DNA of 24,575 nt from a virus. The stretch is taken from the IMG/VR virus record IMGVR_UViG_3300020185_000252, positions 1 to 24,575 of that record, one strand, 5' to 3'. The notes below the pieces were generated by a model. It was not told where the DNA came from. It ran no database searches and was given only the letters and a program-made list of their open reading frames with translations. The stretch's first letter is position 1, and the number at the start of each line of letters is the position of its first letter. Below, piece after piece: positions 1,480-24,575 of the stretch. The position numbers and the translations under genes were made by a program.

Positions 1480-4400
1480 TTAACTATTTATATCTTTTAA
1501 GCTTTCAATCTCAGCTCTAAGTAATTTATTTTCTTCTTTTAACTCTTTTATTGCTTCAATGAACAATGCAGATAGTTGGTTATAATCAACTGACTTATGA
1601 GTTTCACCTTCAACTTTTAAAGATTCAACCTCTTTAACAGCAGATGGTAATACCTCTTCTACATTCTGTGCAATTACACCAGCAGATTCTTTACCGTCTC
1701 TAATCCATTCAAAAGTAACACCATCTAATTGAGATACTTTATCAAGAGCGTTTTCAACTTTATTTACATTAGTTTTTAACTTAGCATCAGAGGCTGTTGC
1801 TGATGAGAATGCAATAATATCTCCATCGGCATCAATTTGACCTCCTGCAGAAAATCTAAGTTCATGTGTTCCTGTTGTATCACTCGTCCCACTATGACTA
1901 TCAAAATAAATATATCCAGTAGACGATGCATCGATTGTCATATTGCCAGTACCGATAGTACCCATTTTCCTGATCTGACTTCTTTGATCAGATAGTAATT
2001 TAACTGTTCCAACCTTTGTTGAATTATTTACAGCAGTAGTAAACTGATCAGCCCAGAAGAAAAGTTTCATTTCGGTAGATTTACTATTAGCAGTAATATC
2101 TGTACCACCGCCTGCAGCAGTATATGTACCTAATTCAAAGGTCGAGAATGCATTCTGGTTAACTTCCGCCGTTGTCGCGATAGTCATATCATCGCCACTA
2201 GGTGTTAAGGTGATATTGGTACCAGCTACATATTGTAGATCATGAGCAACCGACGGACTGCTCTGCTGTAATCTGTGAATTACGTTATTACCATTATCCA
2301 CAAACGAATGATCATAAGTTGAATTAGTATCAGTATTAGTATCCGTTGATGAAATATTAAATACTCCAGCGGATGGTTCACTAATTGTTACATTACTACC
2401 ACTCTGGAGTGTGAGATCGCCTGATCTATAAGTACCGCTGTCTTCTCTAATACGAGTAATTGTATTATCATTCGCTGAAGTAAACGTGACTTTCTGATTA
2501 GTGGCATCAAATGATACAGATGTAGCCCCAGATCCTGCAAATCTTATTTCTTCATTTTCTATTACTGTAAACTTATCTGTACCAGCAGAATCCGAAACTT
2601 TAAATCCGTCGCCCATATCAATCGTGTCAGAATTTGTATCAGTATCAGTAGAACTAATAGTAAATTTATTTGCATTAGTTCTTGTTACTGTTGTTGCTCC
2701 ACTTCCTACAAATTCAATATCGTGGGTAGTATTTCCGTCATGACCCGAACCAGTCAATCTAGCTTTTGTAGTTGAAGCTGGAATAGCTAGTGAATATTGG
2801 TTTTGAGTGTTTGTATCTGTATTTGTATCTGTATCTGACCAAGGTACATTAACTACCATTTGATTAGATGAATTAAGTTGTACACCGTATGTTCTACCTG
2901 CAGTTGATGATACACTATTAGCAGCAGTTGGGTTATCAGTATTGCTAAATAATTTAACAAGACCTAGTGTTGTACTAGTTGCAACCCCGTAGGTTGGAAA
3001 TGTTGGTAAAGTAAATGGCTTTGTAGTAACTCCAGTTACGTGGCCCTGACTATTGACCGCAACACCAGACACTACACTAAACGCTGCGCCATTACCTAGA
3101 GTTGTATTTGACGAAGTGGTAGATGTACTAGTTACATCTGAGTGACTAATTTCTAATCTATCGCTTTCGCCAGTGTTCACTGTAATAAAATTAGTACCTA
3201 TTGCAGTTCCACCGTCGATAGCTAATACTTCATCTTTAGTTATTGTCGCTACGCTGTTGCTGTCGTCTCTTACATAAAAGCGAGTTACGTCAGATTCACT
3301 AGGCTTCGGAATAGGATATACAGTACCATTGCTATCGCCAGTAAAGTACCATCGGTCGTTTGCTTCACTCCAATAAATTTCTGCATTTGTTAGCGATCCT
3401 CTATTAACAATCAGACCAGCATCTTCAGTTGGAGTAGAAGTAGCATTTGAGTTAAGCTCAATTTTATTATCTTCAGTAGTAACAGTCTCAGTATTCATTA
3501 TAGTCTGAGTACCTTCAACTCTTAGATTACCTCTGATTCTTAGATCTAGATCGTTGCCGCTGTCTCCAATATAAACAACACCTTGAGCTGGATTTAATCC
3601 TGCGAGCCTTGCTCTTAAGTTAGTATCATTAACATTAATGTCTGTATTTGTATCTGCGGCATGAATAGTTATTGTATCTGCAGATTCACTACCAGTAGTA
3701 GTAACAATTCCACTACCAATGATTCGGACATGATCTGATGTACCATCATTCAATCTAACATATGGATTAGTACTATTCCCTTGAACATCTAATGTAGCCG
3801 TTCTTTGTGACGTTAAGTAACCAGGATCTACAAAGTTAACAGTAACCTGATTTCCGCTTCTTGCAGTACTAATTGCAGTACCACCTGCAATATCTACAGT
3901 TTCATTTGTATCAATTTGAGCTGTGCCACCACTATCAGCAGTTAAATGCCAATGTTGATAATTATCATATCTGCTATCAAGATCCACTGTTCCAACGCTT
4001 CTAACGTGACCATAAGAATCAATATAGAAATCTTCAATTACAATACCGTTATTATTACCACCTACAAATGTTCCGCCTGATGTGAATAGATTGTGATCTA
4101 AACTTACCCCTCCATCGTATGTAGCAGTTATATGATTACCATCTTTCCAATTAGCAACACCACCATTTCCAACATCTAATCTTTTAGTACCATTTACATG
4201 AAGATCCCAACCAGCAAATCCAAGATCAGGAAGACCAATATTTCGTGTAGCAATTGTTGCATTAGCGTCAGTAACATGACCAAGAGTATTAGTTGTAATA
4301 TTAAAATCTAAATCAGAAATTACTGTAGCGCCAGTTAATGCACCAGTATCGATATTAATATCATCACCATCATAGGTTGGTGGAGTATAAACGTATGATT

Positions 4401-7400
4401 CAGTTGCTGATGAAATAGCAGTAATATGACCATAAGTATCAAGAGTAATATCTTGAATATATGTTCTTCCACTATTATTTACAGAACCTTGATTTGAAGT
4501 GTCCGCGTGATTAATAGAAATATGATCGCTTCCAGCAGATACACTTAATGTAATACCGGAGTTTCCTGCGTCAAGATAAAGCGTATCATTATTACCATCT
4601 GCAACAACAGTTCCTAGTACGGTATCAGCTAAATTTCTAACTGCGATATTTTTAAATATATATTGCGATGAACCTTTGTCAGTATTAATTAATCCAGCAG
4701 AACTATTTCCTGTTTGGTTAGCAGTCATTGAGCCAGAACCAGATAGTCCGGAAGAACCGCTTACTGTAAATGTTCCATTACCTATTGTAGGAATCGTAAC
4801 CGTCGCTTCGGTAGCTGTTGCTCCAGTAACGTGACCAAAGGTATCAAACGTAAACGCAAGGTCTTGTATAAAGGTATTACCACTATGATTTTCAGTAAGA
4901 TTACTTACTGATGAAGTGTCTTGGTGAGATATAGTAATGTTACTTTCAGTTCCAACTAATGCTCCAGCAATGTCAATTCCAACGCCTTCGATAAGATCAA
5001 TTTTATCTCCAGGGAATACATCATCAACCTTTGTGTTATTTACTTTAATTTCAAAGGATGGGTTTGTTGCTTGATATCTTGTATCAAAGTCTGCAGATGT
5101 TACACCAGTTACGTGACCTTGAGCATTAGTAATAATTGACTTAATGTATTGACCATCTTGTGTACCTGTAACACCATATGTTCCAGCAGTACCAAGAGCA
5201 TCATGATTAATTACAACACCATCTCCAGAGATTGAAGTTGTAAGATCGGCTCCTGTAGTAAATGCAAGTGAATCAGTATTCGAGTTTGCTGCAACACTAC
5301 CGCTATCAGCAGTAATAGTTTTCCATATATATTGTGATGAACCTCTATCAGTGTTAATATAATTAGTAACAATAGTAGCGCCTGTTTTTACAGAAGTTTC
5401 GCTAAGACCAGCTCCTGCGCTAAACGTTAAGTTGTCGCTTGGACCAAAATCGACTCCTTCAACTTGAGGAGTTGCGAGTGTGGCAGAAGATAGAATCAAA
5501 GAACCATCAGCTTCCCATCGGTCAGTCGCATAGTTATATACAATACTATGAGCGCCTGTTACGTTAGAAGCAACACCGCTTGGACTTGTGATTGGACCAA
5601 CCTCAAAACCAAAACCACCAGTTGATGGTTCGGAAGTTAAACCGTTACCGGCAAGAACTAATGTATCTTCGACTGTTAGAGTTTCAGTATTTAATGTTAC
5701 ACTATCACCTTCGACATATAGATCACCGGCAATATATAGATCTTCTCCAATACCTACGCCACCCACAACAGTTAAAGCACCAGTTGTCGTTGAACTAGAA
5801 GCAGTATTATTAGTAATACTTACTGCACCTCTTAATGTCGAACCAAGTGCAACATCTAATGTTCCGTCTGTATCTACATTACCGGAAATATCTAAAGAAC
5901 CAGCATCTAATTCACCTGACAGTGTAATATTTCTAAATCCTGTAACATCTTTATTTGCATCAACAACTACGGCTTTTGAAGCAACAACTGTTCCAGCATT
6001 TGTTCCATCGATTCTTTCTAATTCTGTTTCATTAATAGCAGCCGATCCGATAGTAAATGATGTTCCAGTAATTGCTCCACCTGTTATAGAACCAGATGTA
6101 GTAATAGTAGATGTTCCAATATTAATACTTCCAAATCCTGATGTAATACTACCAGCATTTAGTGCACCAACTGTTGTAACATTTGATAATGTATCTAATG
6201 CAGATTCAAAGTAGGTTTCAAAGTTCTGAAGACCAACTTGCTTCATCGTTCCATTATCATTTACGACTAATCTATCAGCATCTACAAGAGTTGTAGAAGT
6301 AGCAGATGTTCCACCATCCATTACATTTAATTCTGTAGCAGTAGCAGTAACCGTTGTTCCATTAATTGATAATCCATCGGTTTCGATTGAACCGTTAACA
6401 TCAACATTACCTTCGATATCAACATCATTATTTACGATTAAATTATTTGTGACTGTTAAGTTATTGGCAAAGGTTGCATTGGCACCATTACCTGTGAGCA
6501 TTGTAGATGAGCCAGATTTAATAAGAATATTATTGGTACCACTTACTTTGTCTATTTCTCCAAATTGAGCACCACCAGCTTTTAATGTTATATTTCCAGA
6601 ATTAGAATCTAGTATAACATCTCCAGCAGAATCAATAGTAAAAGTTCCAGAGGTTACATTAAATGCATTTGAACCAGCACTAATCTCATACGTTGATGCA
6701 TCGAAGACACCTTCGATTTCATTAATCGCACCTACTAAATGAGATGCTGATGTGCCTAGGGTAACAGATCCGCTTGTATGAATATCATCATAGATTTCAT
6801 TAATAGCGTCTAGAATAGAAGTTTTATCTGCTGTTTTAAGATCAGACATTTCTCTTCTAGATCCGCCAGATCCAGCATTACCTGAATTAAATAGATCAGC
6901 TTCGATTTCGTTAATCGCACCTTGAATAAATTTGTTTGTTGTATTAAGAGTTGTAAGTGATCCTGAAACTAAAATATCATCTTGTGTATTTTTAATAGCA
7001 GTTGTAAGGTCAGCTCCTGTATAACTTGTATCACCGATTTCAGCATCAAGAACTCTGACTGCTCCAGAAAGATCAGTAGAGTTGGCAGCATCGACAGGAC
7101 CACCAGTTCCAAACACCATGTTACCAATCTGTGATTCGTGTTCGATGATAGCGTCTCTTACATTTTGAGCAGCAGTAGTAAGAGTATAATTTGCGTTTGC
7201 GCCTCTTAGTACTGTTTCAATTTCGTTAATAGCAGCAATTATGTTATTAGCATTCGTGCCCATAACATAACCAGTTCTTTGAGTTGTATCATCTCTTAGA
7301 ACATTTTCTAATTCGTTAATCGCAGAAACTGCATCAGTTGTTACATTAGTATCTAATACTGCATGGTTACCAAGCTCAGTTCTTAGTTCTTCAATTGCTT

Positions 7401-8946
7401 CTTTAAAGAAGTCAGCAGATAGTCCAGTGAATGATACACCAGTACCATCAACAAAAAGTTCACTATGTAATTCATTAATAGAATCTACAATAGAACTTGT
7501 GTCGTCTGTTAATAGATCAGATCTAGTTCGTTTAGTTCCACCCTCGGCGTTAAATAAATCTTCTTCTAATTCATTAATCGCTTCTGTTAAATCTGATGAA
7601 TTCGTATGAAGAGCAAGATCACCAACTTCGGTATGTAATTGATTAAGTGCACCAGTAATTGTATTTGAACCAGAATCAATAGAAGTAATATTTTCATTAC
7701 CTATTTGATCCTCGTGTTCTCTTACTGCTGATGTTAGGTTCGAAGCGGATGTTCCTAAATTAGAAGCGGTGACATCACCTACTTCATCGTGTAATTGTTC
7801 GAGTGCGCCAGTAATGGTATCATTGTTAGCATCAATATTAGTAATATCAACATTACCAATTTGATCTTCATGTTCTCTGATAGCAGTACTTACAGTAGAA
7901 GCAGATGTTCCCATTGCTACAGCCGTAATTGTTCCAAGTTCAGCATCATGTTCATTAATTGCTAGAACTAGGTCATTAGCAGCAGTTGTTAAACTCTCAA
8001 CCGTACCAATGTCATCTTGTAATTCGTTAATTGCAGCTACAACATCTAATGAGAAAACTTTAATTGCATTTCCCGAAGCAGCCGGAGTATTTAGTTCGAT
8101 ATAAGAACCGTATGTAGAATCAACCGGAACTAAAGCTCCGTGATTAGCACCGGTAATTGTATCAGTAGATCCTAATGCTCTTATTAATGTACCGGCATTA
8201 AATGATCCGTTATATGTTTTTACTCTGATTACTCCACCAGAAACAGAATGTAGAGTACCATACCAAGTTGCATTGGCCTCAACAAGTGCCTGTGTGGCTT
8301 GAGAATCGCCTTGATAAATTGTAACACCTTCAGTATAATTAGTAAGAGTTGGCGAACCGGATTGAGTAATAGTTGCTCTAATATTTGCTACGTGGAATCC
8401 GTTAGCAGTCATATCTTGAGTTAGTTCACTATTATTCTTATATACTCTTACAATACCTACAGGATAAGATTCAGTGACGATTCGAATAACTTTAGCGTGA
8501 GCGATAGTGTCTGGAGAACTTGTGCCTACTTTTAAATCTGCAGATATGCTAAATGTTCCTGAGGAATCTCTTACTAAAATTTTACCAATAGAAGCTGATA
8601 TAATAGTTCCAGACCAAGAAGGCGATCCAGTTGTTCCTTGATAAATAATAGCACCGGCAATATAAGAAGATGCAATTGATGAAACGCCTTCTAAAATAAT
8701 GTATCCGCCAGTATTATCTACTGTATGCGCCGGACTTACTTCAAATCTTGCGGTCTTAGCCGGAGAAGAAGTATCAGGACCAGCAAATAATGTATCACCA
8801 GCACCAGCCGAGTACAGATAAGTTTTATCGGCCATGAGAGCATTGAGTTGCTCATTATCACCTAGATGCAGAGAAATCTCGTTAGACTTTTGCCTAAGAG
8901 ATTCTAAGGTATCTGTTTTATAAATTCTAGTTTCTTTGTTAGCCAT
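1480..8946 (-). CDS. Giant tail fibre protein (2488 aa) with C-terminal S74 intramolecular chaperone
   Basis: The N terminus (MANKETRIYKTDTLESLRQK) is followed by two copies of a beta module at about residues 90-270. Next come 17 units of the AINELE/IREHEDQIG type (residues 300-752), a Gly/Ser/Thr/Asn-rich beta region, six repeats with ISH/INH...GHVT histidines (about 1200-1970), and Asp-Thr/Asn-Thr tracts. The last 103 residues form a Peptidase_S74 chaperone that begins SDAKLKTN. The protein is far longer than a usual fibre. Its ATG overlaps the stop of the 76-residue gene as TAATG, with GGTGG upstream and two late-promoter matches inside that gene. It probably trimerises and is the main host-contact fibre, filling the role of T4 gp12 or gp34-37; that role is inferred. 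The frame is intact over 7.4 kb with no sign of decay. Confidence 0.92.
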   Translation of the reverse strand: MANKETRIYKTDTLESLRQKSNEISLHLGDNEQLNALMADKTYLYSAGAGDTLFAGPDTSSPAKTARFEVSPAHTVDNTGGYIILEGVSSIASSYIAGAIIYQGTTGSPSWSGTIISASIGKILVRDSSGTFSISADLKVGTSSPDTIAHAKVIRIVTESYPVGIVRVYKNNSELTQDMTANGFHVANIRATITQSGSPTLTNYTEGVTIYQGDSQATQALVEANATWYGTLHSVSGGVIRVKTYNGSFNAGTLIRALGSTDTITGANHGALVPVDSTYGSYIELNTPAASGNAIKVFSLDVVAAINELQDDIGTVESLTTAANDLVLAINEHDAELGTITAVAMGTSASTVSTAIREHEDQIGNVDITNIDANNDTITGALEQLHDEVGDVTASNLGTSASNLTSAVREHEDQIGNENITSIDSGSNTITGALNQLHTEVGDLALHTNSSDLTEAINELEEDLFNAEGGTKRTRSDLLTDDTSSIVDSINELHSELFVDGTGVSFTGLSADFFKEAIEELRTELGNHAVLDTNVTTDAVSAINELENVLRDDTTQRTGYVMGTNANNIIAAINEIETVLRGANANYTLTTAAQNVRDAIIEHESQIGNMVFGTGGPVDAANSTDLSGAVRVLDAEIGDTSYTGADLTTAIKNTQDDILVSGSLTTLNTTNKFIQGAINEIEADLFNSGNAGSGGSRREMSDLKTADKTSILDAINEIYDDIHTSGSVTLGTSASHLVGAINEIEGVFDASTYEISAGSNAFNVTSGTFTIDSAGDVILDSNSGNITLKAGGAQFGEIDKVSGTNNILIKSGSSTMLTGNGANATFANNLTVTNNLIVNNDVDIEGNVDVNGSIETDGLSINGTTVTATATELNVMDGGTSATSTTLVDADRLVVNDNGTMKQVGLQNFETYFESALDTLSNVTTVGALNAGSITSGFGSINIGTSTITTSGSITGGAITGTSFTIGSAAINETELERIDGTNAGTVVASKAVVVDANKDVTGFRNITLSGELDAGSLDISGNVDTDGTLDVALGSTLRGAVSITNNTASSSTTTGALTVVGGVGIGEDLYIAGDLYVEGDSVTLNTETLTVEDTLVLAGNGLTSEPSTGGFGFEVGPITSPSGVASNVTGAHSIVYNYATDRWEADGSLILSSATLATPQVEGVDFGPSDNLTFSAGAGLSETSVKTGATIVTNYINTDRGSSQYIWKTITADSGSVAANSNTDSLAFTTGADLTTSISGDGVVINHDALGTAGTYGVTGTQDGQYIKSIITNAQGHVTGVTSADFDTRYQATNPSFEIKVNNTKVDDVFPGDKIDLIEGVGIDIAGALVGTESNITISHQDTSSVSNLTENHSGNTFIQDLAFTFDTFGHVTGATATEATVTIPTIGNGTFTVSGSSGLSGSGSMTANQTGNSSAGLINTDKGSSQYIFKNIAVRNLADTVLGTVVADGNNDTLYLDAGNSGITLSVSAGSDHISINHADTSNQGSVNNSGRTYIQDITLDTYGHITAISSATESYVYTPPTYDGDDINIDTGALTGATVISDLDFNITTNTLGHVTDANATIATRNIGLPDLGFAGWDLHVNGTKRLDVGNGGVANWKDGNHITATYDGGVSLDHNLFTSGGTFVGGNNNGIVIEDFYIDSYGHVRSVGTVDLDSRYDNYQHWHLTADSGGTAQIDTNETVDIAGGTAISTARSGNQVTVNFVDPGYLTSQRTATLDVQGNSTNPYVRLNDGTSDHVRIIGSGIVTTTGSESADTITIHAADTNTDINVNDTNLRARLAGLNPAQGVVYIGDSGNDLDLRIRGNLRVEGTQTIMNTETVTTEDNKIELNSNATSTPTEDAGLIVNRGSLTNAEIYWSEANDRWYFTGDSNGTVYPIPKPSESDVTRFYVRDDSNSVATITKDEVLAIDGGTAIGTNFITVNTGESDRLEISHSDVTSTSTTSSNTTLGNGAAFSVVSGVAVNSQGHVTGVTTKPFTLPTFPTYGVATSTTLGLVKLFSNTDNPTAANSVSSTAGRTYGVQLNSSNQMVVNVPWSDTDTNTDTNTQNQYSLAIPASTTKARLTGSGHDGNTTHDIEFVGSGATTVTRTNANKFTISSTDTDTNSDTIDMGDGFKVSDSAGTDKFTVIENEEIRFAGSGATSVSFDATNQKVTFTSANDNTITRIREDSGTYRSGDLTLQSGSNVTISEPSAGVFNISSTDTNTDTNSTYDHSFVDNGNNVIHRLQQSSPSVAHDLQYVAGTNITLTPSGDDMTIATTAEVNQNAFSTFELGTYTAAGGGTDITANSKSTEMKLFFWADQFTTAVNNSTKVGTVKLLSDQRSQIRKMGTIGTGNMTIDASSTGYIYFDSHSGTSDTTGTHELRFSAGGQIDADGDIIAFSSATASDAKLKTNVNKVENALDKVSQLDGVTFEWIRDGKESAGVIAQNVEEVLPSAVKEVESLKVEGETHKSVDYNQLSALFIEAIKELKEENKLLRAEIESLKDINS
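1483..1791 (-). other. S74 (endosialidase-type) intramolecular chaperone domain of the giant fibre
   Basis: Residues 2386-2488 start with SDAKLK, the Ser-Asp-x-x-Leu-Lys signature of the Peptidase_S74 family. They continue through GVTFEWI, SAGVIAQNVEEVLPSAV and the coiled coil IKELKEENKLLRAEIESL. In this family the domain trimerises the fibre and then cuts itself off just before the signature Ser, using the Ser and Lys. The predicted cut is therefore between residues 2385 and 2386, releasing about 11 kDa. Both key residues are present. Confidence 0.85.
1485..1492 (-). promoter_or_regulatory. T4-type late promoter octamer before the BppU-like gene
   Basis: Exact TATAAATA on the minus strand, embedded in the last four codons of the giant fibre gene (coding Asp-Ile-Asn-Ser) and 17 bases before the ATG at 1467. 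T4 late promoters are recognised by the phage sigma factor gp55 through this sequence alone. Function here is inferred from position and the match. Confidence 0.6.
2321..2836 (-). repeat. Asp-Thr/Asn-Thr low-complexity tracts in the giant fibre
   Basis: Three short tracts of alternating DT and NT dipeptides lie at about 2808-2836 (SDTDTNTDTNTQ), 2621-2650 (SSTDTDTNSDT) and 2321-2346 (SSTDTNTDTNST). They are encoded by near-tandem six-base units such as gtatct/gtattt on the plus strand. They separate beta domains and probably act as linkers. Calcium binding or replication slippage are open possibilities. Confidence 0.6.
3030..5340 (-). repeat. Six ISH/INH ... GHVT repeats in the giant fibre
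   Basis: Six copies share an Ile/Leu-x-His segment followed about 25-45 residues later by a D/N-x-x-GHV/I-x motif. The GHVT cores are encoded near 5120, 4838, 4430, 4276, 4010 and 3042. Examples are ITNAQGHVTGVTS, FDTFGHVTGATA, LDTYGHITAISS and IDSYGHVRSVGT. The copies differ in sequence but keep the Gly-His. They belong to the widespread phage-fibre 'DAQGRVTAA' repeat family, with His in place of the usual Arg/Gln position. Confidence 0.7.
4651..5358 (-). repeat. Duplicated NTD(R/K)GSSQYI(W/F)K domain in the giant fibre
   Basis: The peptide INTDRGSSQYIWK is encoded at about 5321-5358 and INTDKGSSQYIFK at about 4651-4690. Each is followed by a beta stretch, an INH and then a GHV/GHI motif, so the whole block of about 220 residues is a tandem duplication. 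The DNA of the two heads is still visibly similar. Confidence 0.65.
6693..8049 (-). repeat. Seventeen AINELE-type helical repeats in the giant fibre
   Basis: Residues 300-752 contain 17 units with the core (A/S)(I/V)xE(L/H/I)xxxxG, spaced about 20-35 residues apart. Examples are AAINELQDDIG, TAIREHEDQIG, GALEQLHDEVG, EAIEELRTELG and GAINEIEADLF. Two of the pairs (units 3/4 and 5/6) form a higher-order repeat. Each core looks like a short amphipathic helix. In a trimeric fibre they would form a chain of short coiled-coil knots linked by beta segments. Confidence 0.75.
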
Positions 8947-9188: not shown

Positions 9189-12100
9189 TTAAGTAGCCGC
9201 GATAGCCCTAAAGTCTTTTACAGTAGGAGGCGTTGCAGAGTTTTTAGATTTTAAAATAATTTTAAAGGCCATTGATCCAAAACTACCAGTAGGATCAATT
9301 GCATATTTACTTTCTGCATATACGCTATTATCATCATTAGTTGGCAATACATCAGCTGGAGTCGCTGCAATCCAGGCCAGTGAATTAAAGTCAACATCCG
9401 ATCCAGATGGTAATGTCTTATAATAAAAATCAATGGTTGAACCAGAAGGCCTGTTTGCTGAAAGATAAACATCTATTACGTCGGCTTCTTCTTGCAAATC
9501 AATTTTCTTTGTGATATACTTACACAACTCAGAACCACCGTATGCATTGGTTTCTGCAGTAGTATTATTATGACCGATTCTATTTTGAACAGTAGTTACT
9601 GATAATCTATTAGCATCTATCGTTGGAGACAAGTGACTCTTAGTCGAAGATAAAACGGCTTTTAATGTAAACGTTTTAGCGCCTCCGCTTTCGTTCGCAG
9701 AAGATGATATCACTTTAGGAGTATCAAAGAACTGATTCATATTAGGCAATATCTCAATTATATTATTTGTTGCATATGGAGTTTCTGCTCCGTTAATAGA
9801 CTTTTGAGAAGTCGAAGTAAGATAAAATCTAATATCAGTATTAGGAACAGTTGTCATTCCAGCAACCAAATGACATAAATCATAGTGCCTATTTTCAGTA
9901 GCGGTTATTGATGAACCACCGCCTGCTCCAGTTGAGCTTGCGGTATCACTATTTTTTGCTGTAATAGTATAACTGTCATGTGTGATATTTGCTATGGTAT
10001 GTGTTCCATTAATATTAGCTGCGGTAATGCCGTTAAACGCAGCCGCACCAGCTATAATAACACTCGAGCCGGTTCCGTGCATTCCGTGATTTCGATGTCT
10101 AACCGTCATAACTCCAGAGTTATTAACAGTTGAAATACTATCTGGAAGCAAAGTTTTTACTGGTATAATATCATTCACAAAAGTTACTTCTTTATCTACA
10201 GTACCAAACTCAGCTCTCTTAAGAGTAAACTTAAGATCTTTACTTTGATCTGGAGTCCAAGTTGAAGCATTCTGAGAAGTAAAGAACGAACCACCATGTG
10301 GCTGTTTATTAATTCTATGAGCTGTATTAGTGACATCAAACCCACCCATTTCAGCGACCCATGCTACATACTCATCGCAATCCGATTGGATAACAATCGC
10401 GTATTCTTGGTCTTGCATTAGATATACTGGATTTTCAAATGTAAAGGTTGTCGCACTAGCAGCTGTTGCCGAAACGTTAACACTTCCTGGATATAATTCA
10501 ACCTCAGTTCCAGGAACAACGTTTTGAGTAGGAGTTCCGTTTTCAGTAGTAACAATACTCACTGCGACTGGAATTTCTACATCATCAGAACCACCTTCGG
10601 TTTTAATCTGATATTTAGATTGGAAATATAAATCAATACCAGTTGCAAATATACCACCAGACTTTTCAATTAAAATTGTTTGTGCTAATGGATCTGACCA
10701 AGTAGTAGCTTCTCTTCTAAACGTTTCACTAATAACTCGAGAATCGTTTAATCGAGTTGTGTCTAGTCTTGGAACTTTAGTACTAATAACAGTTCTTTCA
10801 GTAGATTCAATTGAACCTTGTGCATGAAACATCGTTTCTGCAGATGTGATTTCTGTTTGTGTATCATTTGTAGTAGAATCTGAAAGCCTAAACTCTTTAG
10901 TTCCACTTTTAAATTTAACTGAATCGTTCCTAGGAATAATAAATTCACCAGTAATCTGTCCCTTATTATTTGTAGATAATGTACCACCACCGCCTGGGTG
11001 AGATGTAACACCAGGGTATTCAACAACAGCAGTTTGATCTGACCATTCTACGTAATTAGCTTCTTTACAATAAGCCGTAACATTAACGTCATTAAAGAAT
11101 GCATACACTTTAGTATTAGGTTTCATTCTACTTGCTTTAAAGTAAATTTTTCTTGATCTCATGAAAGGTATAAAGTTAACTTCTACAATTCTGTTTCCGG
11201 TTTCACGCGTTACAGTGTCAAAGGCAACATCGGTTCTTAAGCCGGTTCTTGATTGGTTTGAAGTTACTGTAGTAGTAGTCAGAGTTGTTTGTCTAGATCT
11301 TCTTGGTTCTATACCTCTCCACCATCTTCCAAACCTATCACCAAATACACTATTTCTTCCAGCTCCTCTATTAGTGATCTCAGTTTCTACTTGTCTTCCT
11401 GACCAGTTAGTTTCCCACTCGTTCCATACCGTACCTAAAATTCCTTCTTCTCTTGCTCTAGTTACAAACTGATCATACTGTCCATCGTCGTCTATAACAA
11501 CATCTGGTCTTACATCAGTTTCTTTCCACTCGTCAGACTCCGGAGATAACTGGACTCGTCCTCCCCAGCTAAATACGTTATATGGATTTACGTTAATCGC
11601 AACTGAAGCATAAGGCTGAACTGTGTGATCAACGTGTGTATATGGCATTGTCCACAATGATGCAGTCTTTGTAGCAGTATTAGTTACACCTGAAGTTTTA
11701 GTTATTAGGTTAACATTTTTAGCCGGACATTCTGGTCTTAATAACCCGTTCTCTTTATCGATTGATTCACTACATTCTTCATGGGCCATATCAGCAACTT
11801 GCTGATCTTTAAACGAATCTACTAAAATTCCGTTTTTAAATCTTGTAAGACCCGCACCGTCTACCATATGAACATCAGCTGCTGATTGCTCTAGTAAAGA
11901 CAGCGAAGTATAGTATTCTAAATTTTTAATTCTTTTATCAAGCTTGCCAATATCTTTCATTGTGTATCTTCTGTTATCCTGTATTTCTGGGATAACGTCA
12001 GCCAATGTAAATACATATGGTTTAAGTTTTAACTGATACAGTGTTAAACCGTCTTCTCTATCAGCAGGTGGTTGTGGATATTCTGAAGGAACACCTTTAA

Positions 12101-14480
12101 TAATTTCAAACTCACCATCTCTTTTTATTATTAGCTTATCAACTCTAGGCAAATAGTAATTGATGTCTGCAGTTAATGCATGACCCGGCTTAGGAGCTCC
12201 ACACAAACTTGCACCAGTACTTGTAAAGTCATTTGCAACATCAGACTTTCTAGATCTAAAATCAATACAGTCTCTTAATTGTAGGTTACCGCTAGTTGCT
12301 GAAAATGTAGGAATTTGTGCATAATCTGAAGTAGGATATGAATCGACGCAGAAATAATCTCCCGCACCGTGATCATAATACTTAAATGTTACTACCATAT
12401 TTCCAGTAGGTAAAGTCGCAGTACCTGCATTCTTAATTATTTTTCCTTCATCATAAAAATTATCACGCTGTCCGTTATCTAATGTAAAGCTATCTTTATG
12501 ATCTACTGAAGCACTATCTATTATAGAAACAATTTCTATGATATCTGCTTTATCTAAATCATACGAAGCTGCATCTCCATTTGTGACATTTATAGTTTTA
12601 GCTAAAGTTGTATTTGTTTTTGTTTTTGGCGCAATAGTCTTTTTAATTGTAGCAATCACATTACATGCAACATTATTACCAACACCAATTCCATTAGAGA
12701 ATGTAACACCAGTTGTACCATTACCGCCGGCAGTTATATTACCGCTTACATTTGTTTTAACGTCGGCCCCTGTAGGAGCAATAATGATATCGTTAACATC
12801 TTCAAACAATCCGACAGCAGTTGTTATAGCCAACGTTCCAGTTCCACTCGTACTTGCCTGAAAAATCCTTTTAATTAAATATGTAGTATCTCTACTTGGA
12901 TCGGCTAATGTTTTAATAGCAGATTGTGGAAGTTCGAAAACGCTCGTGTTATTACCAACAGCAAATCTAGTACCATCGTTTGCTGGAACAAAGTTACCAA
13001 CAAAACCATACGTGGACTGAGCTACGTTATCAACAGCGCTGAAGTTTCCGGAAGTCATAACGATATCAAAAAGGTATAATCTGACATGATCAGAAAATGA
13101 TTCCATGCCACGAACTCTTGCGGTACCAACTGAAGCACCTACGGCTTTCAAAGTAATTGGAGTAAAGTTTTCTAAATCTGGAACTCCTCTTAATCCTGTC
13201 TTTGATAACTTAACATAGTTACCAATATTAATTTGCGTATTAGATTCGTTTATAAAACCTGTAGCATCAGCACCTCGAGGCTTATCTACTTCAACATATG
13301 TTGTTCCAACTTTATGATTTCTATAACCTTGAACATATGCTGTTGATGGCTCAATACCTAGTGCGATTTTATCTGCGCTACCGCCATCTGATTGTGCATA
13401 CTTACCAAAGTTATTGTTAGCATTTAAGTGTTCTAAGATTTCTAACTCAAAAGGCTTAACTACGTAATCACCAGATTCGTCATGGGTTCTTTGAGCAAGT
13501 CTTAAAGTAAGACCAGTATCTGCAGTCTTATCTGTTTTATCTACAGCAATTTCACCATTGCTTATTGTAACTAAAGTGATATAATCATCAACAGTTCTAT
13601 TTGCAATATCAATAGGTTCCTTAATTAAGGTTGTTGATATTTGATATCTATTTGCGCCAGGAGCCGAAGTGTTTGGAACACCTTGAGCATTATCAACTAA
13701 TGTTCCGTCGGTCGAAGAAGTCACTATATTCTCAGCGACTTGTAAACCAATTATATAAGAAGGGTTGTTCGTATACTTATCAAGTATAAGCGTTGAAGCA
13801 CCAACATACACAAAACATCCAGCAATAAAATATACACCTTCAGCAATAGATACTGCAGATCCCTTTCCTACTGCATTTGAAATGGTTGAAGCGGTATTCG
13901 CGCCATCGGTGTTTGTACCACCACCAACCATACCGAATTTTGGAGTATCGGCATTGGAACTAAATACTTCTCCTGCAACAAATTTTTCTACGGTTTGCAC
14001 AACTTGATTATTTGAATCAAGAGCTCCACCAGACTTTTGATATTTAATATAAAGAGTATCTGCATCAGAGCCAGCCGCTGCAACTACATCTAGAACCAAA
14101 GCAGTAACCTGATTACCAGTATTTCCAGTTCCTGTGATTATTTTACCTTTAAAATTTGCTAATCCTGAAGTTGCGCTTGCATAAGCCGTACCGCTATAGG
14201 TAAATGATGGCTCTAACTTTATATAATCATACTCAACGTTAAGCGACAATTCTCCATTTACAACTCGTGATCCATCTTTAAAAGCATATTGACCATGTCT
14301 ATCAATCTGAGCCTGCAACATAGTTTGCATTTGAGTAAGCTCTCTTGCCTGTACCGCATACCCTGGACGAAATAAAATCCTATGATAGTTTTTAGTTTCA
14401 ACTGTTTCACCACTATAATCTCTAAAGTAGTCATCAAAGTATGGCGTTTTGTTATAAGCTGTTATATTGGTAGTTGTCAT
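9189..14480 (-). CDS. Large baseplate/fibre structural protein, DUF4815-like, 1763 aa
   Basis: The N terminus has the signature FDDYFRDYSGETVETKNYHR, then ILFRPGYAVQARELTQMQTM at residues 35-54. This is the conserved opening of DUF4815-type proteins of T4-like marine phages. Other conserved-looking blocks are YTMKDIGKLDKRIKNLEYYT (about residue 838), RFKNGILVDSFKDQQVAD, the segment around IVEVNFIPFMRSRKIYFKAS, and WSDPLAQTILIEKSGGIFAT with a following beta sandwich. Residues about 106-185 hold a beta module also seen in gp8, gp53 and the giant fibre. The gene follows gp8, where T4 has gp9, gp10 and gp11, so it probably forms the outer baseplate and holds the fibres; that role is inferred. A late-promoter match lies 20 bases upstream of the ATG, with AGAGAG as a weak ribosome-binding site. 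Confidence 0.9.
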   Translation of the reverse strand: MTTTNITAYNKTPYFDDYFRDYSGETVETKNYHRILFRPGYAVQARELTQMQTMLQAQIDRHGQYAFKDGSRVVNGELSLNVEYDYIKLEPSFTYSGTAYASATSGLANFKGKIITGTGNTGNQVTALVLDVVAAAGSDADTLYIKYQKSGGALDSNNQVVQTVEKFVAGEVFSSNADTPKFGMVGGGTNTDGANTASTISNAVGKGSAVSIAEGVYFIAGCFVYVGASTLILDKYTNNPSYIIGLQVAENIVTSSTDGTLVDNAQGVPNTSAPGANRYQISTTLIKEPIDIANRTVDDYITLVTISNGEIAVDKTDKTADTGLTLRLAQRTHDESGDYVVKPFELEILEHLNANNNFGKYAQSDGGSADKIALGIEPSTAYVQGYRNHKVGTTYVEVDKPRGADATGFINESNTQINIGNYVKLSKTGLRGVPDLENFTPITLKAVGASVGTARVRGMESFSDHVRLYLFDIVMTSGNFSAVDNVAQSTYGFVGNFVPANDGTRFAVGNNTSVFELPQSAIKTLADPSRDTTYLIKRIFQASTSGTGTLAITTAVGLFEDVNDIIIAPTGADVKTNVSGNITAGGNGTTGVTFSNGIGVGNNVACNVIATIKKTIAPKTKTNTTLAKTINVTNGDAASYDLDKADIIEIVSIIDSASVDHKDSFTLDNGQRDNFYDEGKIIKNAGTATLPTGNMVVTFKYYDHGAGDYFCVDSYPTSDYAQIPTFSATSGNLQLRDCIDFRSRKSDVANDFTSTGASLCGAPKPGHALTADINYYLPRVDKLIIKRDGEFEIIKGVPSEYPQPPADREDGLTLYQLKLKPYVFTLADVIPEIQDNRRYTMKDIGKLDKRIKNLEYYTSLSLLEQSAADVHMVDGAGLTRFKNGILVDSFKDQQVADMAHEECSESIDKENGLLRPECPAKNVNLITKTSGVTNTATKTASLWTMPYTHVDHTVQPYASVAINVNPYNVFSWGGRVQLSPESDEWKETDVRPDVVIDDDGQYDQFVTRAREEGILGTVWNEWETNWSGRQVETEITNRGAGRNSVFGDRFGRWWRGIEPRRSRQTTLTTTTVTSNQSRTGLRTDVAFDTVTRETGNRIVEVNFIPFMRSRKIYFKASRMKPNTKVYAFFNDVNVTAYCKEANYVEWSDQTAVVEYPGVTSHPGGGGTLSTNNKGQITGEFIIPRNDSVKFKSGTKEFRLSDSTTNDTQTEITSAETMFHAQGSIESTERTVISTKVPRLDTTRLNDSRVISETFRREATTWSDPLAQTILIEKSGGIFATGIDLYFQSKYQIKTEGGSDDVEIPVAVSIVTTENGTPTQNVVPGTEVELYPGSVNVSATAASATTFTFENPVYLMQDQEYAIVIQSDCDEYVAWVAEMGGFDVTNTAHRINKQPHGGSFFTSQNASTWTPDQSKDLKFTLKRAEFGTVDKEVTFVNDIIPVKTLLPDSISTVNNSGVMTVRHRNHGMHGTGSSVIIAGAAAFNGITAANINGTHTIANITHDSYTITAKNSDTASSTGAGGGSSITATENRHYDLCHLVAGMTTVPNTDIRFYLTSTSQKSINGAETPYATNNIIEILPNMNQFFDTPKVISSSANESGGAKTFTLKAVLSSTKSHLSPTIDANRLSVTTVQNRIGHNNTTAETNAYGGSELCKYITKKIDLQEEADVIDVYLSANRPSGSTIDFYYKTLPSGSDVDFNSLAWIAATPADVLPTNDDNSVYAESKYAIDPTGSFGSMAFKIILKSKNSATPPTVKDFRAIAAT

Positions 14481-20667: not shown

Positions 20668-20675
20668 TATTTATA
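20668..20675 (-). promoter_or_regulatory. T4-type late promoter octamer directly in front of gp25
   Basis: The minus strand reads AGGAGTATAAATACTAGTATG. With T4 spacing, where transcription starts about 6 bases after the octamer, the start would fall at or next to the ATG. The transcript would then have almost no leader, or this match is not used as a promoter. Confidence 0.45.
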
Positions 20676-23616: not shown

Positions 23617-24504
23617 TTATCCTCCTCCTAATTCAGCGGCACGATCAATAGAGGTATTTTGAAGATCGGCAGTATATTCTGCAGCCTCACCGGGAGTATC
23701 TGCAACTGCTCCAACTACATGACCTGCATCGTCGTAACCATCCTTATATACAAGATCTTCACCATATAGATCGTCCCTTGTGATTGAACGTACCTCTTGG
23801 AAGGTCATTGATAGGTCTATTTCGGTCGGTGCAGCACCCAATACACCATCATTTTCATGGAATGCATTGCCTGTTGCGTTATAATTTGCGCCCATACCAG
23901 TGAGATATGTGTCAATGATACGTGGCATGTATTTGTTTGGCTTACCACCTGACATGAATTCGATACGAAACGTAGGCGGATACTCTAGTGAACCTGTACC
24001 TCTTTCTTTTGGATACATGTATTTGCGAAATGCATTCTCTATCTTATGGGCAGTTAATGATTCTTCTTTTGATGTTGGTACTAGCTTAAATGCGAATTCG
24101 AATGATCTGACATTGACTCCTTCGAACGTTGTGGCAGTATATGGATTGACTACAAGGCCTGATTTGAGCTCGAATGCTGTTGCAACACCGCCGGCTGCAC
24201 CACCTCCTGCCTTGAATTTACTCGTTAACTTGGCAACAAGGTCTGATCCTGTCTTTGATTTAGTACCACCCGTACCTGCTCTACCACCAAGTCTTTTATC
24301 TGCTGCAAGAGCGCCGATTGAACCAAGTTCTGAGCTACCATAGTTCATGCTATCGTTTGATGCCATACCTATTGGAATGAATAGATGGATGTCTGTAAAT
24401 TCTCCCATTTCACCTCTCACCATAGAGAAAGACACGTGAGGAAAGCCTTCTTCTGATACTTTTGACCTCAGAGTCTCTGGGAACGTTAATATTGTGTGTG
24501 ACAT
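23617..24504 (-). CDS. Baseplate tail-tube cap/initiator protein (gp48/gp54 family)
   Basis: Length 295 residues. The signature block runs from VNPYTATTFEGVNVRSFEFA (residues 119-138) through LEYPPTFRIEF (173-183), KYMPRIIDTYLTGMGANYNA (191-210) and TEIDLSMTFQEVRSITRDDL (227-246). This is the conserved core of T4 gp48 (364 residues) and gp54 (320 residues), two related tube-like proteins that sit on the gp27 hub and start the tail tube. I cannot tell which one it is; the length is nearer gp54, and no second copy is in the window. Residues 72-107 are a Gly/Ala/Lys-rich loop. The ATG has AAGG five to six bases upstream, and a late-promoter match lies 48 bases upstream. Confidence 0.85.
   Translation of the reverse strand: MSHTILTFPETLRSKVSEEGFPHVSFSMVRGEMGEFTDIHLFIPIGMASNDSMNYGSSELGSIGALAADKRLGGRAGTGGTKSKTGSDLVAKLTSKFKAGGGAAGGVATAFELKSGLVVNPYTATTFEGVNVRSFEFAFKLVPTSKEESLTAHKIENAFRKYMYPKERGTGSLEYPPTFRIEFMSGGKPNKYMPRIIDTYLTGMGANYNATGNAFHENDGVLGAAPTEIDLSMTFQEVRSITRDDLYGEDLVYKDGYDDAGHVVGAVADTPGEAAEYTADLQNTSIDRAAELGGG
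23621..23628 (-). promoter_or_regulatory. Ribosome-binding site for gp53 within upstream glycine codons
   Basis: GGAGGAGG on the minus strand, eight bases before the gp53 ATG. It is formed by the three terminal GGA glycine codons of the gp48/gp54-type gene, so the C-terminal Gly-Gly-Gly may be kept for its RNA sequence rather than for the protein. Confidence 0.7.
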
Positions 24505-24519
24505 ATGCCTTTTTACCTT

Positions 24520-24527
24520 TATAAATA
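24520..24527 (+). promoter_or_regulatory. T4-type late promoter octamer, plus strand
   Basis: Exact TATAAATA on the plus strand, 32 bases before the plus-strand ATG at 24560. It is the only plus-strand copy I found in the window, and it faces the only plus-strand gene. Confidence 0.55.
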
Positions 24528-24552
24528 GTAATACATTTAATAACTATAGATC

Positions 24553-24560
24553 TATTTATA
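24553..24560 (-). promoter_or_regulatory. T4-type late promoter octamer for the minus-strand baseplate operon
   Basis: Exact TATAAATA on the minus strand (TATAAATAGATC), 48 bases before the ATG at 24504. The octamer overlaps the first base of the divergent plus-strand gene's ATG. Confidence 0.65.
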
Positions 24561-24575
24561 TGGCTTACAAAGGTA
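24560..24575 (+). CDS. Start of a divergent plus-strand gene, possibly head-completion protein gp4
   Basis: The plus strand opens ATG GCT TAC AAA GGT at the window edge (MAYKG). Gp4 head-completion proteins of marine T4-like phages commonly open with MAYKG-like residues as I recall them, and in T4 gene 4 lies next to gene 53. Five residues cannot prove this. No clear ribosome-binding site is visible upstream, but a late-promoter octamer lies at a suitable distance. Confidence 0.35.

Follow-up and report, generated by a model that had tools for sequence, protein, structure and literature searches.

A 55-bp intergenic gap in a T4-like phage carries two perfect T4-type late-promoter octamers that face each other between a head-completion gene and a baseplate operon. 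Comparisons with the corresponding regions of related phages indicate that this inward arrangement is real and widely conserved. We favor, with good confidence, the explanation that the gap holds a compact divergent late-promoter module whose two promoters are interlocked by packing. The same layout occurs in T4, in cyanophages and in the Dickeya phage LIMEstone1, and therefore the module represents a type that is already known.

The gp4/gp48 junction and its two octamers

The window, meaning the whole stretch of 24,575 bp that was analyzed, is a complete IMG/VR contig that ends 16 nt into its plus-strand gene. Its source is a T4-like phage whose closest cultured kin, judged by layout, are marine, and whose relatives are viral contigs of metagenomes. 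All long genes up to position 24504 lie on the minus strand. The gp48 gene at this edge is followed, in its own direction, by gp53-like, phrog_350 tail protein, gp5-like, gp25 and gp6 genes. Two very large minus-strand genes lie beyond the baseplate genes, one encoding 1763 aa (9189-14480; phrog_358, unknown function) and the other 2488 aa (1480-8946), with a tail-fibre family match in its C-terminal part only. The features of the junction are as follows, with +1 positions derived by applying the T4 box spacing to the octamers:

23617-24504, minus strand: gp48-like baseplate tail tube cap (phrog_230, E 1.5e-43), first gene of the baseplate operon
24505-24559: intergenic gap of 55 bp containing the whole module, from sequence and open reading frames
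24520-24527, plus strand: late-promoter octamer TATAAATA directed toward gp4, exact match; predicted +1 at 24533, leader of 27 nt
24533-24547: predicted 5′ overlap of both transcripts, 15 nt (ACATTTAATAACTAT), from the octamers and T4 spacing
24553-24560, minus strand: late-promoter octamer TATAAATA directed toward gp48 and the baseplate operon, exact match; predicted +1 at 24547, leader of 43 nt
24560-24575, plus strand: start of gp4 (head completion), encoding MAYKG before the contig ends, from relatives L006 and L037

Because only 16 nt of the plus-strand gene lie within the window, its identity as a head-completion gene cannot be read from the window itself. A blastn comparison of phage records with the window end gave no match, and relatives were therefore sought by protein, with relatives of gp48 found to be encoded by 43 viral contigs. 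In kin that run past the junction, the plus-strand gene encodes a 147-aa protein (phrog_218 head closure, E 7e-53) that is 45% identical to T4 gp4, and gp4 of these kin carries a Pfam TnsA-like endonuclease N-terminal domain. Downstream of gp4 in the kin come genes for the DNA end protector gp2 (phrog_429), for a tail tube protein and for a baseplate hub protein. The relatives thus confirm the identities of gp4 and gp48, and with them the earlier assignment of the two promoters to a head-completion gene and the baseplate operon. Gene starts in uncultured contigs were picked by simple rules. An upstream in-frame ATG that would lengthen gp4, as in L006, was rejected because the reading frame in the window meets a TAG stop codon (24526-24528) inside the octamer; a longer start is also countered by the MAY(K/S)G start, which aligns with T4 gp4.

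The first-pass annotation described two inward-facing, overlapping late promoters, and the evidence supports this description: both octamers are perfect and both reside in the 55-bp gap. Written out, the gap is atgcctttttacct-t-TATAAATA-gtaatacatttaataactatagatc-TATTTAT; the second box is completed by the base that follows, the A of the gp4 ATG (24560-24562). The overlap previously noted between the minus-strand octamer and this start codon therefore amounts to exactly one base, the A at 24560. The motif alone is mildly enriched in the whole window (8 copies versus 3.8 ± 1.6 expected), and an inward perfect pair arose in 35 of 20,000 dinucleotide shuffles of the AT-rich 57-bp stretch. A palindrome at the spacer edge, ATAGATCTAT, was considered as an additional element and rejected, as it is not conserved and appears as ATAGTTCTAT in many relatives.

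Each box is the 8-bp TATAAATA of T4-type (gp55) late promoters, with its distance of -13 to -6 from the start site assumed from T4 (PMC1524935), and virion genes, gp4 and gp48, are located downstream. The window is a fragment, and the gp55 protein and gp45 clamp of this promoter type were found through the kin contigs G001 and G002, which encode homologs of gp55 (E 7e-44 and 4e-44, respectively) and of gp45 (E 2e-62 and 1e-61). A gp45-like match in a third, 187-kb contig (G003:C1:35429-36085, minus strand) includes one in-frame TGA, which might be a sequencing error or a case of recoding.

Conservation of the inward pair

The first-pass annotation had staked its proposal on conservation of the octamers in close relatives, and both are kept in 40 of the 40 close relatives, which comprise all those with the upstream region. 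The spacer between the boxes measures 24-27 bp in these relatives and is represented by seven different sequences. For a broader survey, gp4 loci from viral contigs yielded 165 usable examples, 58 of which remained at <75% gp4 identity, and 51 of these non-redundant loci have a divergent neighbor within 110 bp. Inward pairs of the TAAATA/TATTTA core are present at 34 of the 51 divergent junctions, versus 1.1 ± 1.0 in dinucleotide shuffles, and outward core pairs at 4 of 51, versus 1.0 in shuffles. This comparison constitutes strong evidence that the boxes are paired more often than by chance. Approximately one-third of the 51 junctions are without one box in strict form, and therefore the inward pair is not obligatory.

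Known phages carry the same arrangement. At T4 genes 4/53, as in the window, gp4 diverges from a baseplate operon and two perfect TATAAATA boxes face inward. However, the T4 gap is 47 bp (TATAAATA-GATAATA-TATTTATA), and its boxes are only 7 bp apart compared to 25 bp in the window. The predicted +1 sites in T4 diverge by 4 bp, so the two RNAs would not overlap, unlike those of the window. T4 genes 4 and 53 also both have a strong Shine-Dalgarno sequence, which window gp4 lacks. The partner of gp4 differs as well, being gp53 in T4, gp48 in the window and gp2 in the cultured Pelagibacter phage HTVC008M. Elsewhere in T4, the 49-bp inh/segE gap contains a comparable inward pair in which one box is a variant. 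In the 50-bp 26/51 gap, the two boxes overlap as a palindrome.

In LIMEstone1 (Ackermannviridae), the depositors annotated an inward pair at gp48/F-LimII-gp4 with the term ‘putative late promoter’. Unlike in the window, a homing endonuclease gene lies between promoter and gp4, and the boxes are CTTAAATA and CCTAAATA. The gp48/gp4 junctions of cyanophages Syn9 and S-RIM2 resemble the window in having inward boxes, a baseplate-ward box on the gp4 ATG (TATTTATG) and a gp4 gene without a Shine-Dalgarno sequence, but they differ in having CTAAATA-type and CATAAATA boxes and a shorter predicted transcript overlap, within a gap of 36-37 bp. We searched the literature for start-site mapping in Syn9 or at T4 4/53 and obtained nothing usable. 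These examples show deep conservation of the divergent late-promoter layout of T4 across the T4 superfamily, extending through coliphages, cyanophages and uncultured marine phages.

Warman, Grainger and colleagues (PMC12825309) described bidirectional promoters in E. coli and other prokaryotes that likewise place opposed -10 elements on overlapping DNA. These promoters use one shared pseudo-symmetric -10 element, and their divergent starts are mostly 18 bp apart, with 10 and 23 bp as other common distances (PMC12825309). By the definition of Warman et al., start sites flank the one shared -10 element or fall inside it. The gp4/gp48 junction does not have this form, as its two boxes are 25 bp apart and the predicted starts lie between them.

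Leaders, gap length and promoter polarity

Many late boxes in the window phage group are located exactly 5 nt before an ATG, a spacing at which the predicted +1 coincides with the first base of that codon. For gp25, all 17 of the non-redundant contigs (<80% identity; L239-L318) have the octamer at this 5-nt distance from the ATG, and the window has the same arrangement:

20668-20675, minus strand: gp25 late octamer, 5 nt before the ATG, as in relatives

For gp2, the gene after gp4, 18 of 35 cases have an offset of 5 nt and 6 of 35 an offset of 6 nt, among the boxes listed. Several other late genes of the window phage group and of HTVC008M (31119 and others) also have an octamer at offset 5. 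In HTVC008M, this offset is found for 5 of the 21 perfect boxes and for 7 of the 122 variant ones, versus 0.4% per site for permuted octamers. By contrast, perfect boxes in T4 are never less than 13 nt from the ATG of a 60-codon frame. The octamer-N5-ATG pattern was not seen in contig G003. From these positions, we predict that the window phage group, unlike T4, produces leaderless late mRNAs. A limited search of open papers found no report of leaderless late mRNAs in T4-like phages. If RNA data confirm the prediction, many late mRNAs of marine T4-like phages would be leaderless, those of cultured HTVC008M included.

The distance between a box and its start codon also tracks with promoter orientation. 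Inward pairs occupy gaps of at least 28 bp, and each box is at least 17 nt from its own ATG, with one exception at 9 nt. Where the gap is very short, one box is 4-8 nt away from an ATG; if both boxes are present, the pair stands back-to-back, as evident in L064 (21-bp gap) and in HTVC008M. The 26-bp gp2/gp4 gap of HTVC008M (L323 18917-18942) reads CAT-gttac-TATTTATA-TCTAAATA-aggat-ATG, such that its back-to-back octamers are each exactly 5 nt from an ATG, unlike the inward pair of the window. In each outward pair, one or both of the octamers are no more than 6 nt from the corresponding ATG. Two longer gaps, L120 (49 bp) and L085 (54 bp), are also outward, each with one box 5-6 nt from the ATG, and therefore gap length alone is not decisive. 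It appears that the need for a leader, combined with compaction, sets promoter polarity, although this geometric argument is partly forced by arithmetic because two promoters with leaders can share a short gap only by interlocking. The pattern suggests a rule in which leadered late genes interlock their promoters, whereas leaderless ones can place promoters back-to-back.

The packing explanation would operate as follows. Two gp55-type -10 boxes face each other between the gp4 operon and the baseplate operon. Each promoter would fire across the other into its own gene, such that the module would activate the two operons during the replication-coupled late phase. With leaders of approximately 27 and 43 nt, two promoters and their leaders would fit into 55 bp only if interlocked. 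We infer that both promoters fire, that they do so from the predicted +1 positions, and that they exclude each other, in which case overlapping footprints would cause the operons to take turns. Neither regulated balance nor antisense control would be needed. Packing accounts for the layout, but this is not proof that competition is unimportant.

Interference, antisense pairing and the box at the gp4 start

The outer edges of the two boxes span 41 bp in the window, 23 bp in T4 and 17-43 bp in 36 non-redundant relatives. DNA in a late open complex is melted between -12 and +2 (PMC7892883), and by this measure the two bubbles are separate in the window and overlapping in T4. At both junctions the polymerase bodies should overlap, and the two sites are not expected to be occupied at once. 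Because both polymerase complexes would cover the same DNA, physical interference is plausible, and initiation at the two sites is probably mutually exclusive given these overlapping footprints. For bidirectional promoters, polymerase binding in both directions at once is expected to be impossible, and those of E. coli show competition only under strong activation of one direction (PMC12825309). By analogy, clamp-activated late promoters could operate in this strongly activated, competing regime. Such considerations, along with conservation of the module from T4 to marine phages, are what recommend the idea that mutual interference is itself the selected function, serving to set the ratio between head-completion and baseplate expression. 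We judge this to be quite unlikely: the box span varies over the range given above, the partner gene of gp4 differs, some lineages have a single box, and compaction explains the layout without such a function. That the sequence encodes a ratio setter in which clamp-activated polymerase engages one direction at a time, so that the operons time-share the initiation site, likewise seems unlikely. In this reading, loss of the leader through octamer-N5-ATG spacing would let some lineages go back-to-back.

Two further readings are considerably less attractive than interlocking by packing. The first-pass annotation suggested that the transcripts share about 20 complementary bases and might pair as antisense RNAs, with the duplex repressing one or both messages. 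T4 spacing reduces the shared stretch to 15 nt, which fall within the gp4 leader and would pair with a calculated energy of about -14 kcal/mol. This stretch is short and A/T-rich. The overlap is predicted to vary between -9 and +17 nt among the 36 non-redundant relatives, and neither T4 nor HTVC008M is predicted to have one. The conserved complementary stretch of a cis-encoded antisense RNA pair is therefore not observed, and an RNA-duplex function is very improbable because the overlap is so variable in length. Even less weight, close to none, is given to the proposal that only the plus-strand promoter is real and that the minus-strand octamer is an A/T-rich translation-start sequence of gp4, despite the lack of a Shine-Dalgarno sequence for this gene and the recurrence of TATTTATATG at the gp4 start in many phages. 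The octamer matches the late consensus perfectly, the equivalent box is 6-12 nt upstream of the gp4 start in other lineages including T4, and the LIMEstone1 annotation lists both boxes as promoters. Moreover, this reading would leave the baseplate operon without an adjacent late promoter.

The distance from the baseplate-ward box to the gp4 start has a bimodal distribution. In 14 non-redundant phages the box overlaps the start codon or lies within 3 nt of it, and in 22 it is 6-21 nt upstream. By a crude 4-mer test, a Shine-Dalgarno-like sequence precedes gp4 in 1 of the 14 phages with the box at the start, versus 8 of the 22 with the box upstream. The window belongs with those whose gp4 is without a Shine-Dalgarno sequence, and its gp48 has AAGG. 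Judged from these sequences, low translation of gp4 is a possible consequence of this placement.

Start codons and boxes are also merged on the other side of some junctions. In L054, L069, L096, L110 and L115, the start codon of the partner gene lies inside the gp4-ward box or directly adjoins it. In the 30-bp gap of L128, both boxes overlap or touch the start codon of the opposite gene (CATCTAAATA...TATTTATG).
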